The notes under the pieces were generated by a model. The model saw only the letters and a program-made list of their open reading frames with translations. It had not been told where the DNA came from and searched no databases. The position numbers were made by a program, and so were the translations under genes. Source: Flaviaestuariibacter flavus (GTDB taxonomy: Bacteria; Bacteroidota; Bacteroidia; Chitinophagales; Chitinophagaceae). Taken from it: a DNA stretch of 64,000 bases. Each line of letters starts with the position of its first letter. Within the stretch, counting starts at the first letter, position 1. The stretch spans positions 75,914 to 139,913 of the forward strand of contig NZ_SJZI01000008.1 in NCBI RefSeq assembly GCF_004337505.1, given 5' to 3'. Below, piece by piece: positions 6,383 through 43,222 of this stretch.

Positions 6383-6392
6383 CAATGAGGAT

Positions 6393-6485
6393 GTGAGATG
6401 TCAGATGTCAGATCTCGGATCCGGTCGTGCGGCAGCCAAATCCGGGATCACCAAACAAATCAGACATCGGAGATCGTAAATCGAA
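6393..6485. repeat. TCAGATC word repeats after aroK
   Basis: Words of the GAGATGTCAGATGTCAGATC type at 6393-6425 face mirrored words (AATCAGACATCGGAGATC) at about 6459-6475, just past the aroK stop. The same word family occurs near 17.1, 42.7, 59.5 and 61.3 kb. Confidence 0.6.
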
Positions 6486-9997: not shown

Positions 9998-9998
9998 G

Positions 9999-10100
9999 CA
10001 TTACCGCATTACCGCATTACCGCATTACCGCATTACCGCATTACCGCATTACCGCATTACCGCATTACCGCATTACCGCATTACCGCATTACCGCATTAC
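9999..10100. repeat. CATTACCG 8-bp tandem array
   Basis: Twelve perfect CATTACCG units plus a 6-nt partial unit. The TAA stop codon of the KMO gene (10097-10099) lies inside the last partial unit. Such a perfect array is expected to vary in length by slippage. Confidence 0.95.
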
Positions 10101-11446
10101 CCTCTCAGCGCCGCCAGGATTCTTTCTTTTACGTCCTCCCGCTTCCAGTTCTCGGCTATATCGGGGTCTTTCATTACTTCCTGCATAATGGCCTCCTGCC
10201 GCTGGCTGTTGCGCAGTGCCTCGCTGTAACGGATATGCGGGCTGAAGGTCACCTGCGAATAGGCAGGAATCCATTGGTCGGGATGCGATTCGTGCACCCA
10301 GGCCTCGATCTTTTTCTGCAGGAGAAACTTCGGGTCGGCGGTGCGGGCGCGCATCTCGGTAAAATTGTTGATGGCCAGGTCGGCGATGGCATCGCCGTCG
10401 GGCTTGCGCAGGGCCTGGTATTCCGCCAGGATGGGCTCCCAGTCGTCGCCCCACTGCTCCATCAGTTCGGCCAGTACGGTACAATCCTCAAAACCCGCAT
10501 TCATGCCCTGACCGAAGAAGGGCACGATGGCATGTGCCGCATCGCCGATGAGCGCGAAGTGATCGCCACGCACCCAGGGGAAACACTTCACGGTTACCAG
10601 CGAAGACGTGGGATTATGAAAGAACTGCCGCGCGAGGTCGGGAACGAGCGGCACCAGGTCGGGAAAAGTCTGCCTGAAAAACGCTTCTACATCCGCCTCT
10701 GTTTTCAGCCGCTCGAACGACGTTTCTCCTTCGAAGGGGAAAAAGAGCGTACCGGTAAAAGAGCCGTCAAGGTTCGGCAGGGCGATGAGCATATAATTGC
10801 CGCGTGGCCAGATGTGGAGCGCGTTCTTTTCAAGCTGGAAAGCACCAGCGGCACCCGCCGGGATGGAAAGCTCCTTATAGCCGCAGTCGATGTAATACTG
10901 CTGGTAATCGAACTTCTGGTGCTGCAGCATATGCGAAAGCCGCGTGGCGGAGTAAGCGCCATCGGCCCCGAAAAGAAGATCAAACGGTACAGTGCTGGTT
11001 TCATTGGGGCCGGCGAAATGCACTTCCTTTTTCTTCCAGTTCACATGGTCGCAGCGCTGGTGAAAATGCAGGTGCACGCCTTCGCGTTCGGCGAGGTCGA
11101 GCAATTTGCAGTTGAGCTCGTGCCGTGACACCGAATTGATATACTGTCCCTCTTTGCCGTAGGGCTGAAAAGCGTGCGAGCCATCCGGCTGGTGCAGGTG
11201 GCGGCCATGCATCGGTATGGCGATCTGCAATACTTCTTCCGCGATGCCGACACCCTGCAGTGCCTTGATGCCGCGGTCGCTCAACGCCAGGTTTATGGAG
11301 CGCCCGGCTTCCACGGTTTCCTTGCGCATGTCGCCCCGCCGCTCGTAGATGCTCACCTCGTAGCCGCGGCGGCGGAGGTAGATGGAAAGAAGCGATCCGA
11401 CGAGGCCGGCACCGGTGATGAGGATGGATTTGGTTGGAGTTGCCAT
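10097..11446 (-). CDS. kmo: Kynurenine 3-monooxygenase
   Basis: This 449-residue FAD hydroxylase converts kynurenine to 3-hydroxykynurenine with NADPH and O2. It has the Rossmann motif GAGLVG (12-17), the KMO signature 'AGRSINLALSDRG', the 'GADGAYSATR' DG motif and the 'GDAAHAIVPFFGQGMNAGFEDC' FAD/substrate motif near residue 300. No strong C-terminal membrane helix is visible, unlike the mitochondrial enzymes. It belongs with the kynureninase, HAO and ACMSD genes that follow. The stop codon lies in a tandem repeat. Confidence 0.95.
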   Translation of the reverse strand: MATPTKSILITGAGLVGSLLSIYLRRRGYEVSIYERRGDMRKETVEAGRSINLALSDRGIKALQGVGIAEEVLQIAIPMHGRHLHQPDGSHAFQPYGKEGQYINSVSRHELNCKLLDLAEREGVHLHFHQRCDHVNWKKKEVHFAGPNETSTVPFDLLFGADGAYSATRLSHMLQHQKFDYQQYYIDCGYKELSIPAGAAGAFQLEKNALHIWPRGNYMLIALPNLDGSFTGTLFFPFEGETSFERLKTEADVEAFFRQTFPDLVPLVPDLARQFFHNPTSSLVTVKCFPWVRGDHFALIGDAAHAIVPFFGQGMNAGFEDCTVLAELMEQWGDDWEPILAEYQALRKPDGDAIADLAINNFTEMRARTADPKFLLQKKIEAWVHESHPDQWIPAYSQVTFSPHIRYSEALRNSQRQEAIMQEVMKDPDIAENWKREDVKERILAALRG

Positions 11447-14026: not shown

Positions 14027-14030
14027 TCGG

Positions 14031-14100
14031 CACACTAGCACACTAGCACACTAGCACACTAGCACACTAGCACACTAGCACACTAGCACACTAGCACACT
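14031..14100. repeat. CACACTAG 8-bp tandem array
   Basis: Eight perfect CACACTAG units plus a 6-nt partial unit, ending 2 nt from the stop codon of the aminomuconate-semialdehyde dehydrogenase gene. Confidence 0.95.
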
Positions 14101-36910: not shown

Positions 36911-36918
36911 CAAATGTA
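36911..36918 (-). promoter_or_regulatory. -7 element of pepT
   Basis: TACATTTG on the minus strand, 4 nt before the ATG. Its TTAC end runs into a GGTAATG word repeat. Confidence 0.5.
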
Positions 36919-36975
36919 ATGGGGTAATGTGGTAATGCGGTAATGCGGTAATTGGAGAATGGGGGAATGGGGTAA
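36919..36975. repeat. GGTAATG word repeats upstream of pepT
   Basis: GGGGTAATGTGGTAATGCGG and related units, the same word family as at 9999 and 31923. They lie between the pepT promoter and the slyD terminator. Confidence 0.75.
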
Positions 36976-36994
36976 TAGAAAATGGTGGTACATG

Positions 36995-39038: not shown

Positions 39039-39971
39039 ATGAACTACCAGGACCTCCGGATCGTTTTCATGGGCACACCTGAATTTGCCGTCGCTTCGCT
39101 CGATGCGCTGGTGCAGGCCGGCTGCAACATCGTTGGCGTCATTACAGCGCCGGATAAGCCCGCCGGCCGTGGCATGCAGCTGCAGGGAAGCGCCGTGAAG
39201 AAGTATGCGGTGGAGAAAGGACTGCACCTGCTGCAGCCGGAGAAGCTGAAAGCACCGGAGTTCGTGGAAGCATTGCGTGCCCTCAACGCCGACCTACAGG
39301 TTGTGGTTGCCTTTAGGATGCTGCCGGAGATCGTCTGGAATATGCCGCCCATGGGCACCCTCAACGTACACGGATCGCTGCTGCCGCAATACCGCGGCGC
39401 CGCGCCGATCAACTGGGCCATCATTAACGGTGAGCCCGAAACCGGTGTCACCACCTTCCGCCTCAAGCACGAAATTGACACCGGCGATATCCTGCTGCAA
39501 GACCGTATGCCGATCGGCGAAAACGAAACCGCCGGTGAAGTGCACGACCGCATGAAGGAGCTCGGCGCGGCGCTGCTCGTGCGCACCGTAAAAGGCCTCG
39601 CCGAAGGCAGCATCTCCGAAACGCCGCAGTCGCACCTCGACCCGGCCACGCTCAAACACGCCCCGAAGATCTTTACCGATACCTGCCGCATCGACTGGAC
39701 CCGCACCGTTGCCGATGTGCACAACCAGGTGCGCGGCCTCTCCCCTTTCCCGGGCGCTTTTACAACGCTGAACGGGAAAACGCTCAAGATCTTCCGCAGT
39801 ACCGTTGCGGGCGGAAAAGCTGCGGACATGCCCGGCGAGCCGGACACCGACGGCAAGACCTACCTGCGCTTTTCCTGCGCCGACGGCGATCTCAACATTG
39901 TAGAACTACAACTGGAAGGAAAGAAGCGGATGGGCGTGGAAGAATTCCTACGCGGCTATCGCTTCAGCTGA
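39039..39971 (+). CDS. fmt: Methionyl-tRNA formyltransferase
   Basis: This 310-residue enzyme formylates initiator Met-tRNA with 10-formyl-THF. It shows 'IVFMGTPEFAV' (8-18), 'PDKPAGRG', catalytic H111 with SLLP (113-116, 'VHGSLLPQYRGAAPINWAI') and 'HEIDTGDIL' (144-152). A C-terminal OB-like tRNA-binding domain follows from ~205. The length is normal. Its 3' end overlaps the convergent small gene at 39964 by 8 bp. Confidence 0.96.
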   Translation: MNYQDLRIVFMGTPEFAVASLDALVQAGCNIVGVITAPDKPAGRGMQLQGSAVKKYAVEKGLHLLQPEKLKAPEFVEALRALNADLQVVVAFRMLPEIVWNMPPMGTLNVHGSLLPQYRGAAPINWAIINGEPETGVTTFRLKHEIDTGDILLQDRMPIGENETAGEVHDRMKELGAALLVRTVKGLAEGSISETPQSHLDPATLKHAPKIFTDTCRIDWTRTVADVHNQVRGLSPFPGAFTTLNGKTLKIFRSTVAGGKAADMPGEPDTDGKTYLRFSCADGDLNIVELQLEGKKRMGVEEFLRGYRFS

Positions 39972-41480: not shown

Positions 41481-42899
41481 CTACGTCTGGGTTCCGCCCG
41501 AAGGCCCTTGCGCACGGATGCGCCATTCGCGCGGGTAATAGTTGTTGATGCGGTTGGGCAGTGCGTTGATCCAGCCCAGCGGCGCGCCGGCGAAGGTCAC
41601 CAGCTGCCAGCCGCGTTCGGTGTCGATATGAAAGTCCTGCCGCTGCAGAAAGCGGATCGCGTCGGGGTAGGACAGCTCCACGCGCGGCACCGCGCCTCCC
41701 ACCCGGGGGCTCATGGCCAGCGCATGATCGGGCACGAGCTTGTCGCGGATCGGCTCGCCCACGGCGGTGCCGGCCTGCTGGATATACAGGGCGCTTTGGA
41801 GAATCGAAAAATCGGAGACACGATCTTCCGGAAGGGCCAGCACGCGGCTGCCATGGCGCACAAACTTCAGTCCTTCCGTATCCATCCACTTTTCCAGCGG
41901 CGCCGTTTCTTTCGCGGAAAGCAGGTCGGCTCCTTTCGGTTTGTAGCGCGGCGCGGCGGCCACATCGAGCTTGCGGAAGGCAGCGAGAAAAAAGCCCTCG
42001 CCCCGAATCTTGTCGGGGTAAAACCGGTAGCCCCAGGCGCCCTCCGGCGACCGTACTTCTACAATGCCGGCGTCGGGGCACTGCAGCTGGAGCGGTACTA
42101 CCTGGAAAGTTGTAGTGAGCCAGTCGAGGATTACCTCGTCTTCTTCGGCCGAATACGAACAGGTGGAATACACCAGCAGCCCGCCTTCTTTCAGTGCAGG
42201 CCATACGTCGGCCAGGATGCGCTGCTGGCGGCCCTGGCACAGCTGCACGTTGGCGGGGCTCCACTCGGCGATCGCGTCGGGGTCGCGGCGGAAGAGACCG
42301 CTGCCGCTGCAGGGCGCGTCTACCACGATGACGTCGAAAAAGCCTTCGAGCTTTGCAAAATGCGCGGGATCATTGCTGGTAACGATGCTGTTGCCGGCAC
42401 CCCACTTGGTGAGGTTTTCCGACAGGATGCCCGCGCGGGCCTTGATCACCTCGTTGCTCACCAGCAGGCTGCCCGGGGCGAGCAGCGACTGCAGGTGCGT
42501 GGATTTGCCGCCCGGCGCGGCGCAGAGATCGAGCACCCGCAGCCGCGCCGACAGGTCGGCATGCTGCGCCAGGGCCTGCTCCACGAACATGCTCGAGGCT
42601 TCCTGCACGTAGTAGGCGCCCGCGTGAAAAAGAGGGTCGAAAGTGAAAGAAGGCCGCTCGGGAAGGTAGTAGCCGTAGCGCGACCAGGGAATCCGGCTGG
42701 CGGGATCTAAGATCTCAGATCTCAGATCTGAGATCTTAGATCTGAGATCCTGAAACAGAACACCGGGAGCTTGCGACTTGGCCGGGTTAAGGCGGATGGA
42801 CGTCACCTGGGCGCCCGACTCGTGCACCTGCACAAAGGCGTCGTGGTCATAACCGGGGAGGCCTTCAAGGGAGCGCAGCAGGGCTTCGGGGAGTTTCAT
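41481..42899 (-). CDS. RsmF/NOL1-NOP2-Sun rRNA m5C methyltransferase
   Basis: This 472-residue SAM-dependent rRNA cytosine-C5 methyltransferase has an N-terminal domain (1-100), motif I 'LDLCAAPGGKSTH', the motif-IV cysteine in 'DAPCSGSGLFRR' and the catalytic motif-VI cysteine in 'YSTCSYSAEED'. A C-terminal RNA-binding (PUA-like) part extends to the end, as in RsmF. Residues 51-66 are encoded by a near-perfect palindromic repeat and look inserted. The start at 42899 fits 'MKLPEALLRSLEGLPGYD'. Confidence 0.9.
   Translation of the reverse strand: MKLPEALLRSLEGLPGYDHDAFVQVHESGAQVTSIRLNPAKSQAPGVLFQDLRSKISDLRSEILDPASRIPWSRYGYYLPERPSFTFDPLFHAGAYYVQEASSMFVEQALAQHADLSARLRVLDLCAAPGGKSTHLQSLLAPGSLLVSNEVIKARAGILSENLTKWGAGNSIVTSNDPAHFAKLEGFFDVIVVDAPCSGSGLFRRDPDAIAEWSPANVQLCQGRQQRILADVWPALKEGGLLVYSTCSYSAEEDEVILDWLTTTFQVVPLQLQCPDAGIVEVRSPEGAWGYRFYPDKIRGEGFFLAAFRKLDVAAAPRYKPKGADLLSAKETAPLEKWMDTEGLKFVRHGSRVLALPEDRVSDFSILQSALYIQQAGTAVGEPIRDKLVPDHALAMSPRVGGAVPRVELSYPDAIRFLQRQDFHIDTERGWQLVTFAGAPLGWINALPNRINNYYPREWRIRAQGPSGGTQT
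42704..42749. repeat. GATC-rich palindrome inside the rRNA methyltransferase gene
   Basis: A perfect inverted repeat: the 19-nt arm GATCTAAGATCTCAGATCT (42704-42722), one central C, then its exact complement (42724-42742), followed by TGAGATC. It belongs to the CAGATCT word family found in gaps at 6.4 and 59.5 kb. Here it is in frame and encodes residues 51-66 (DLRSKISDLRSEILDP). Confidence 0.9.
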
Positions 42900-42948: not shown

Positions 42949-43095
42949 CTCACAAAACTGTGAGTGCGATCCCCGTACGGATTCATACCACTTACAAAAC
43001 TGTGAGCGCCAGTCCGCAGTCAGTTTATGCCATTCACAAAACTGTGAGTGGCACCGCCAGGCTGATCCATGCCACTCACAAAATTGTGAGTTGGC
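42949..43095. repeat. Four palindromes with exact 42-bp period
   Basis: The core CACTCACAAAACTGTGAGTG or a close variant (8-bp stem, AAAC loop) occurs with its ACAAAA at 42952, 42994, 43036 and 43078. The last copy has AAAATTG. The preceding ATGCCA is also shared by the later copies. About 18-20 bp between cores differ each time. The array lies between the rRNA methyltransferase start and the transhydrogenase 3' end. The 42-bp period is four helical turns. Confidence 0.85.
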
Positions 43096-43182: not shown

Positions 43183-43222
43183 TCCCCTCACCCCCAGCCC
43201 CTCTCCCGGGGGAGAGGGGAGC
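43183..43222. repeat. CCTCTCCC/GGGAGAGG dispersed repeat, copy 1
   Basis: CCCCTCACCCCCAGCCCCTC continuing into a CCCGGGGGAGAGGGG palindrome. It is a widespread bacterial intergenic repeat, with two more copies at 46469-46698. Confidence 0.75.

Follow-up and report, generated by a model that had tools for sequence, protein, structure and literature searches.

In-frame heptamer-word arrays in a variable loop of an RsmF-type rRNA methyltransferase of Flaviaestuariibacter flavus and its Chitinophagaceae relatives

A 64,000-nucleotide stretch of the Flaviaestuariibacter flavus genome (hereafter, the window) contains an intact gene for an RsmF-type 16S rRNA methyltransferase, within which seven-base words form a palindromic array. 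How did repeat DNA of this kind come to lie in the reading frame of the enzyme, and does the same happen in other lineages and other genes? The reading that we favor, at a probability of roughly 0.78, is that a heptamer-word element of the kind found between the genes of this genome settled in frame in a loop of RsmF that tolerates it. The features on which the analysis is based are listed in Table 1.

Table 1. Features of the window (coordinates in the window; strand given where assigned)
Feature	Position	Strand	Basis or remark
Intact 472-codon gene for an rsmF-type 16S rRNA methyltransferase	41481..42899	-	ORF, Pfam, motifs DAPCSG and STCS
In-frame heptamer array, GATCTNN units, residues 51-66	42704..42749	-	TRF, lag-7 score
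Perfect palindrome, 19-nt arms and 1-nt centre, inside the rsmF array	42704..42742	.	Palindrome search, DNA fold
Variable linker NPAK to IPWSRYG, recurrent array site in orthologues	42693..42776	-	36/153 genes, pLDDT
Second hot loop, following EDEVILDW; own genome below the array threshold	42069..42119	-	Orthologue arrays
fmt (methionyl-tRNA formyltransferase) loop, heptamers in some relatives, none here	39630..39653	+	Orthologue arrays
Intergenic two-arm heptamer element, same words as rsmF array	6390..6482	.	Fold z -0.59, not better than shuffles
Intergenic heptamer element, same words, starts at upstream stop codon	59471..59585	.	Fold z -2.87

The array in the rsmF gene of the window

The RsmF protein of the window matched the Pfam families PF17125, PF01189, and PF13636 and carried the sequences DAPCSG and STCS, which we take to be its catalytic motifs. 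The earlier note on this DNA had described a perfect 19-1-19 palindrome of CAGATCT words coding for residues 51-66 of the enzyme, and both points were confirmed: the frame runs through the array uninterrupted, and window positions 42702-42749 encode DLRSKISDLRSEILDP as these residues. The array had also been placed behind the N-terminal domain, which proved incorrect, as it lies inside the match to the Pfam N-terminal RsmF domain (residues 2-100). TRF assigned the array a period of 7 with 6.6 copies, and its best stretch matched itself at lag 7 in 19 of 21 positions. The window has 13 occurrences of CAGATCT where 5.2 would be expected, and 0 of 100 shuffles reached the observed count.

Among perfect palindromes of the window whose loop measures 0-11 nt, this one was the longest, and the DNA strand was predicted to fold at -17.5 kcal/mol (z -6.0). 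Its perfection adds little beyond the array, because AGATCT is self-complementary and only two spacer-base pairs must match; it was therefore dropped as independent evidence. At the third unit of the reverse arm, the usual word would be read in frame as the stop codon TGA, but TTA is present instead, and the spacer paired with this unit in the other arm is altered to match, for which chance alone would suffice in about one case of four.

The linker that holds the array is 29 residues long in the window protein. An AlphaFold model of this protein (471 residues, with the start Met left off), computed from an alignment of the protein itself with 39 of the 62 candidate orthologues, had a mean pLDDT of 87.9, falling to 54-55 at model residues 41-60. 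In the alignment with 3m4x and 3m6u, the two best solved relatives, both were gapped in this stretch.

Other palindromes are located beside the gene. Just upstream of rsmF, CTCACAAAACTGTGAG is present four times (three with one change) at an exact spacing of 42 bp (window 42949-43090), which corresponds to about four helical turns and resembles an operator array; at up to one mismatch, these four places were the only ones in the whole assembly. A palindrome of similar look, CTCACCCCCAGCCCCTCTCCCGGGGGAGAGGGG, lies at 43187-43219 between rsmF and the next ORF, presumably a transhydrogenase-like gene.

Heptamer elements across the genome

The in-gene words of the window are those of the dominant intergenic family of its genome. 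Three successive GATNTNN units (GATNTNNGATNTNNGATNT) had 420 matches in the assembly (3.96 Mb, 86% complete), the reversed control had 0, and this was the highest count among 118 genomes including the own genome. The intergenic copies reported earlier near 6.4 and 59.5 kb were both found again (Table 1). As to whether such intergenic elements are strong hairpins, the two tested gave a mixed picture (z -0.59 and -2.87), and this idea was not retained.

The arrangement of the repeats was analyzed in 860.5 kb, consisting of the window and 40 further stretches (733 genes by a simple caller, 86% coding; about 1 kb is counted twice because two fetched stretches overlap the window). This sample contained 58 period-7 arrays, of which 41 were intergenic, 15 were at a gene end, and two were deep inside genes (rsmF and icmF), while the other lags from 4 to 16 gave 0-7 arrays each, except lags 8 (42), 14 (15), and 16 (31). 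The period-8 arrays show that octamers are repeated in this genome too, and none of the 153 rsmF linkers described below had a period of 8. In the window, TRF found octamer tandem arrays at 9998-10101 (GCATTACC, 13 copies), 14030-14100 (GCACACTA, 8.9 copies), and 36916-36976 (GTAATGGG, 7.6 copies), the first two of which have 16-base units with GTCTATTG close by.

Sixty-seven GATNT elements were identified in the same sample: 46 in co-directional gaps, 12 in convergent gaps, six in divergent gaps, two deep inside genes, and one at an edge. Apart from rsmF, the deep location was a chance chain in clpX (L286:2115), which was set aside as no member of the period-7 array set. Divergent gaps held fewer elements than their share (6 of 64, where such gaps make up 100 of 471; p 0.02 by gap count and 0.0004 by bases). 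Among the 46 elements in co-directional gaps, 28 started within 20 nt of the upstream stop codon and 13 lay within 20 nt of the downstream start codon, with the stop nearer than the start for 33.

Two non-overlapping arms were recognized in 24 elements, in 22 of which a GATNT arm was followed by its complement, and 51 further arms stood alone. The unit GATTT was on the loop side in 13 and 17 of the 24. Arm identity in these 24 elements was 0.863 within and 0.793 between elements, a difference reached in 0 of 3000 permutations; a first comparison (15 elements, p 0.0046) contained three overlapping pairs, and the larger set replaced it without overlaps. Overall, the element lies mainly in intergenic DNA 3' of genes and often has two arms, which evolve together.

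Recurrence of arrays in RsmF and other proteins

Of 188 rsmF genes, 154 were left after the removal of those shorter than 330 residues and those more than 95% identical to a kept gene, and 153 were usable, window included, after one linker shorter than 36 nt was removed. An array was scored when a 21-position stretch had at least 16 matches at lag 7, with the linker taken from NPAK to PW. By this threshold, 36 of the 153 distinct genes carried a period-7 array in the linker and 117 were below it. The remainder of the same genes passed at lag 7 in 13 of 2833 segments (lag 14, 12; lags 8 and 12, one each), far below the proportion in the linker (Fisher p 8e-38). All 13 were located around a second RsmF loop, after EDEDILDW and before WGIVE, in other orthologues. 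The earlier note, which dealt with one gene, understated the case: arrays are found in the same RsmF loop across many lineages.

A period-7 signal might stem from chance or, as a by-product, from the repetition of codons or peptides. A peptide repeat would give a period divisible by 3, and the linkers passed at none of lags 4-6, 8-13, and 15 (0/153 each; lag 14, 22/153), which refutes the by-product reading and makes this explanation as a whole extremely improbable.

Linkers with an array had a median length of 25 residues, against 15.5 for those below the threshold. Their words depend on the lineage (AATGGTSA, AATTCTC, AAATCNG, AACGTSA, CACGATT), and the encoded peptides differ as well. Complementary stems scoring 10-19 were found in ten linkers among the first 96 distinct rsmF genes, where control segments reached at most 7-10, and some of these stems pair an arm on the N side with its complement on the C side. 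Three linkers below the threshold (L027, L032, and L178) were nevertheless heptameric by eye. Short-loop palindromes (stem of at least 7) occurred in 8 of the 117 below-threshold linkers and in 39 of 2320 control segments (p 0.0014). Palindromes of the CCCTCTCCTTTGGAGAGGG and CCCCCCTTGGGGGG type were seen in the rsmF linkers L056, L068, and L128 and the icmF linkers L297, L298, and L304, the same linkers that hold heptamers in other genomes. One short-loop palindrome, traced genome-wide, had four exact places in 2 of 10 genomes, the own genome of L056 not among them.

These data also bear on whether the array serves RsmF or its mRNA, either as a translation-tuning hairpin or as a selected flexible spacer. 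The strong fold of the window palindrome (z -6.0) and the recurrence at one loop speak for such a role, but the 117 of 153 genes without an array above the threshold, the variation of the encoded peptides between lineages, and the low-confidence predicted structure at the site speak against it, and we regard a function as unlikely.

The window protein is 71% and 73% identical to its two nearest relatives, L010 (G016) and L011 (G011), with which it forms a fully supported clade. Neither relative has a period-7 array above the threshold, and their linkers comprise 24 and 16 residues against 29 in the window. Together with the pLDDT of 54-55 at the site, the two sisters below the threshold support the earlier proposal that word repeats can enter coding sequence and be tolerated in a loop, and the 110-gene alignment contained no orthologue encoding the same residues. 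Because the nearest relatives differ along the whole linker, a target-site duplication or an empty site is unreadable.

On a FastTree tree built with both loops removed, the array state required 24 changes, a count that mixes gains and losses, comes from a tree without bootstrap, and misses decayed arrays under the threshold; strongly supported branches force 16 of them. Shuffled labels required a mean of 32.6 changes and in 0 of 500 cases as few as 24, so that the trait is clustered on the tree. Among pairs 80-99.5% identical in which both had arrays (at least 15/21), 8 of 12 length differences were multiples of 7 residues, compared with 6 of 28 in other pairs. These steps are suggestive of length change by whole units in frame, in pairs that share lineages and include some duplicate records.

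Heptamers in frame were first noticed in fmt in the flanks of rsmF loci of five genomes. A period-7 array was present in the fmt loop before HAPKI in 10 of 60 usable genes and in 0 of 553 control segments (p 4e-11), where five of the ten cases had raised the question beforehand and, of 30 loci fetched later, L245 and L259 pass. The 60 genes were obtained from 85 by removing 13 without the anchor (including L044, whose loop is heptameric by eye) and 12 near-duplicates.

The gene that holds the second deep array of the own genome encodes B12-binding, MeaB, and methylmalonyl-CoA mutase domains, and we take it to be icmF; the array is located in the inter-domain linker ITNAENG...PVLGITGTGG. Lag-7 scores of this linker were 18 in the own genome, 17 in L292, 16 in L290, 15 in L288 and L300, and 9-10 in seven others; six more linkers, for which a wider stretch was read, scored 8-11. 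Thus 3 of 18 genomes reached at least 16/21, and lags 6, 8, and 9 gave at most 14.

Of 38 period-7 arrays in 400 kb from five other genomes, two were wholly inside a called gene, the first at the start of its gene and the second in a glycosyltransferase. Four stretches of genome G134 (L225-L228) contained 30 heptamer arrays in 80 kb with many words (AATGGTC, AACGCTT, TTTGTGG); none of these arrays was wholly inside a called gene, and many touched a gene end. In-gene arrays are rare overall, in a survey that covered only the genes that came into view.

Origin of the arrays and comparison with known repeats

If in-gene words were always copied from an abundant family of the host, they should be common elsewhere in each genome. 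AATGGTSA was found at 288 places in G134 and 164 in G212 (controls 8 and 39), at only 1-18 places in thirteen further genomes with a word of this kind in the rsmF linker, and at none in G045, while 6-10 places were counted in G000, G012, G015, G016, and G037, whose linkers do without it. Similarly, AACGTSA had eight places in G015 against 1-4 in genomes having it in rsmF, and the G010 word AATTCTCAATTCTCAATT was found in rsmF only, in a genome 62% complete. How closely the in-gene word follows the vocabulary of its host thus varies: an intergenic source of the first units agrees with the counts for the window, G134, and G212 and disagrees with those for G010, G015, and several low-count hosts, and the rule that the words are always copied from an abundant host family is contradicted by G010 and the low counts.

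This unevenness favors a purely local birth, in which the loop is unconstrained and period-7 arrays grow from chance seeds by slippage with no intergenic transfer. The lineage-dependent linker words agree with such a birth, as does a survey (Mrazek 2007, as told in PMC4679880) in which heptanucleotides outnumbered the other long simple repeats of most genomes and were ascribed to polymerase slippage. In contrast, the in-gene words belong to the dominant intergenic family in the window and are abundant in G134 and G212, and the complementary arms at both ends of some linkers (stem 10-19) need more than direct slippage. We therefore hold purely local birth to be a real but less probable explanation, one that overlaps the best supported reading, which allows either source of the first units. 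A single ancestral array in the loop as the source of all the in-gene words is less likely still. The clustering of the trait on the tree, the class replacement at one site in Nostoc, and the heptameric look of L027, L032, and L178 speak for it, but 117 of 153 linkers are below the threshold and shorter, both sisters of the window are below it too, and arrays recur at the second RsmF loop, in Fmt, and in IcmF.

In that best supported reading, heptamer elements establish themselves neutrally in tolerant loops and turn over there by gaining or losing whole units. A short stretch of units would arrive from an intergenic copy or arise locally, and would then grow and shrink by slippage in whole units, while copying between the arms, through template switching at the hairpin, may keep the two arms alike. 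Selection would act only against changes that shift the frame, create a stop codon, or disturb structured parts by insertion, so that arrays would survive in length-free loops. The insert in RsmF would then be 16 residues of flexible peptide for which no function is needed. A broader view has about an even chance of being right: protein loops of Chitinophagaceae would be a standing habitat of heptamer stem elements, where the words current in each lineage keep entering the same small set of tolerant loops in housekeeping enzymes (RsmF twice, Fmt, IcmF, and others), so that the linker peptides are largely translated intergenic repeats. The frame would be kept, since three heptamers add up to 21 bases.

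The closest parallel in effect is found in the palindromic repeats of Rickettsia and Wolbachia (RPE/WPE), which lie in frame inside preexisting genes at solvent-exposed parts of enzymes, with different element groups at one site, hot spots considered, repeats of 100-150 bp, and the same insertion sites in all Rickettsia orthologues examined (PMC3767692). The RsmF palindrome likewise sits in frame in a preexisting gene. It differs in being a 46-nt array of heptamer words whose order varies between copies, with no 100-150 bp family, and in that the words vary by lineage, most orthologues are below the threshold, and the host belongs to Chitinophagaceae. The likeness to Rickettsia drawn in the earlier note therefore holds at the level of the effect and not for the element itself, a period-7 array of lineage-varying words and no fixed 100-150-bp palindrome; the RsmF array works like the protein-coding palindromes of Rickettsia but belongs outside that family.

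Period-7 repeats of TAACTGA are mainly intergenic with some copies in ORFs, occur in Beggiatoaceae, cyanobacteria, and a few Bacteroidetes, where one set lies near the end of purC, and consist of a single fixed word located mostly just before start codons, the ORF copies being mainly at protein ends (PMC4679880). The present arrays share the tandem period of 7 of heptanucleotide simple repeats, but are made of GATCTNN units and many other words, lie more often behind stops, often have two arms, and recurrently hit internal protein loops. In the Nostoc trnL intron, heptamers (Class I, TDNGATT; Class II, NNTGAGT) are described on both sides of the P6b stem, with unit-wise length change and replacement of one heptamer class by another at one site (PMC4476775). 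The 24 elements with two complementary heptamer arms in our 860.5 kb resemble this arrangement, and tandem TDNGATT, as given there, also reads GATTTDN, close to our inner GATTT unit; P6b belongs to a group I intron RNA of cyanobacteria, however, whereas the rsmF array is part of an uninterrupted protein-coding frame. The REPs tagged with GTAG/CGTC are small palindromes of 20-40 bp mainly downstream of genes, some in genes, with a proposed transposase link (PMC3733652). Our elements are likewise mainly 3' of genes with some inside genes, but they are tandem heptamers. Searches of the open-licence literature turned up no account of in-frame heptamer arrays recurring in proteins of Chitinophagaceae.

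In-frame repeats inside genes are already known from Rickettsia and Wolbachia. In the present case, the repeat unit is not a multiple of three, the enzymes are conserved, the phylum is another, and the same loops are involved in many lineages, which suggests that seven-base repeats repeatedly become parts of ordinary proteins. The loops of RsmF, Fmt, and IcmF are parallel natural trials of repeat DNA becoming protein, in which movement of heptamer hairpins and their birth in place by slippage become testable against each other. These repeats in the loops may also account for the unalignable linkers in some of these proteins.
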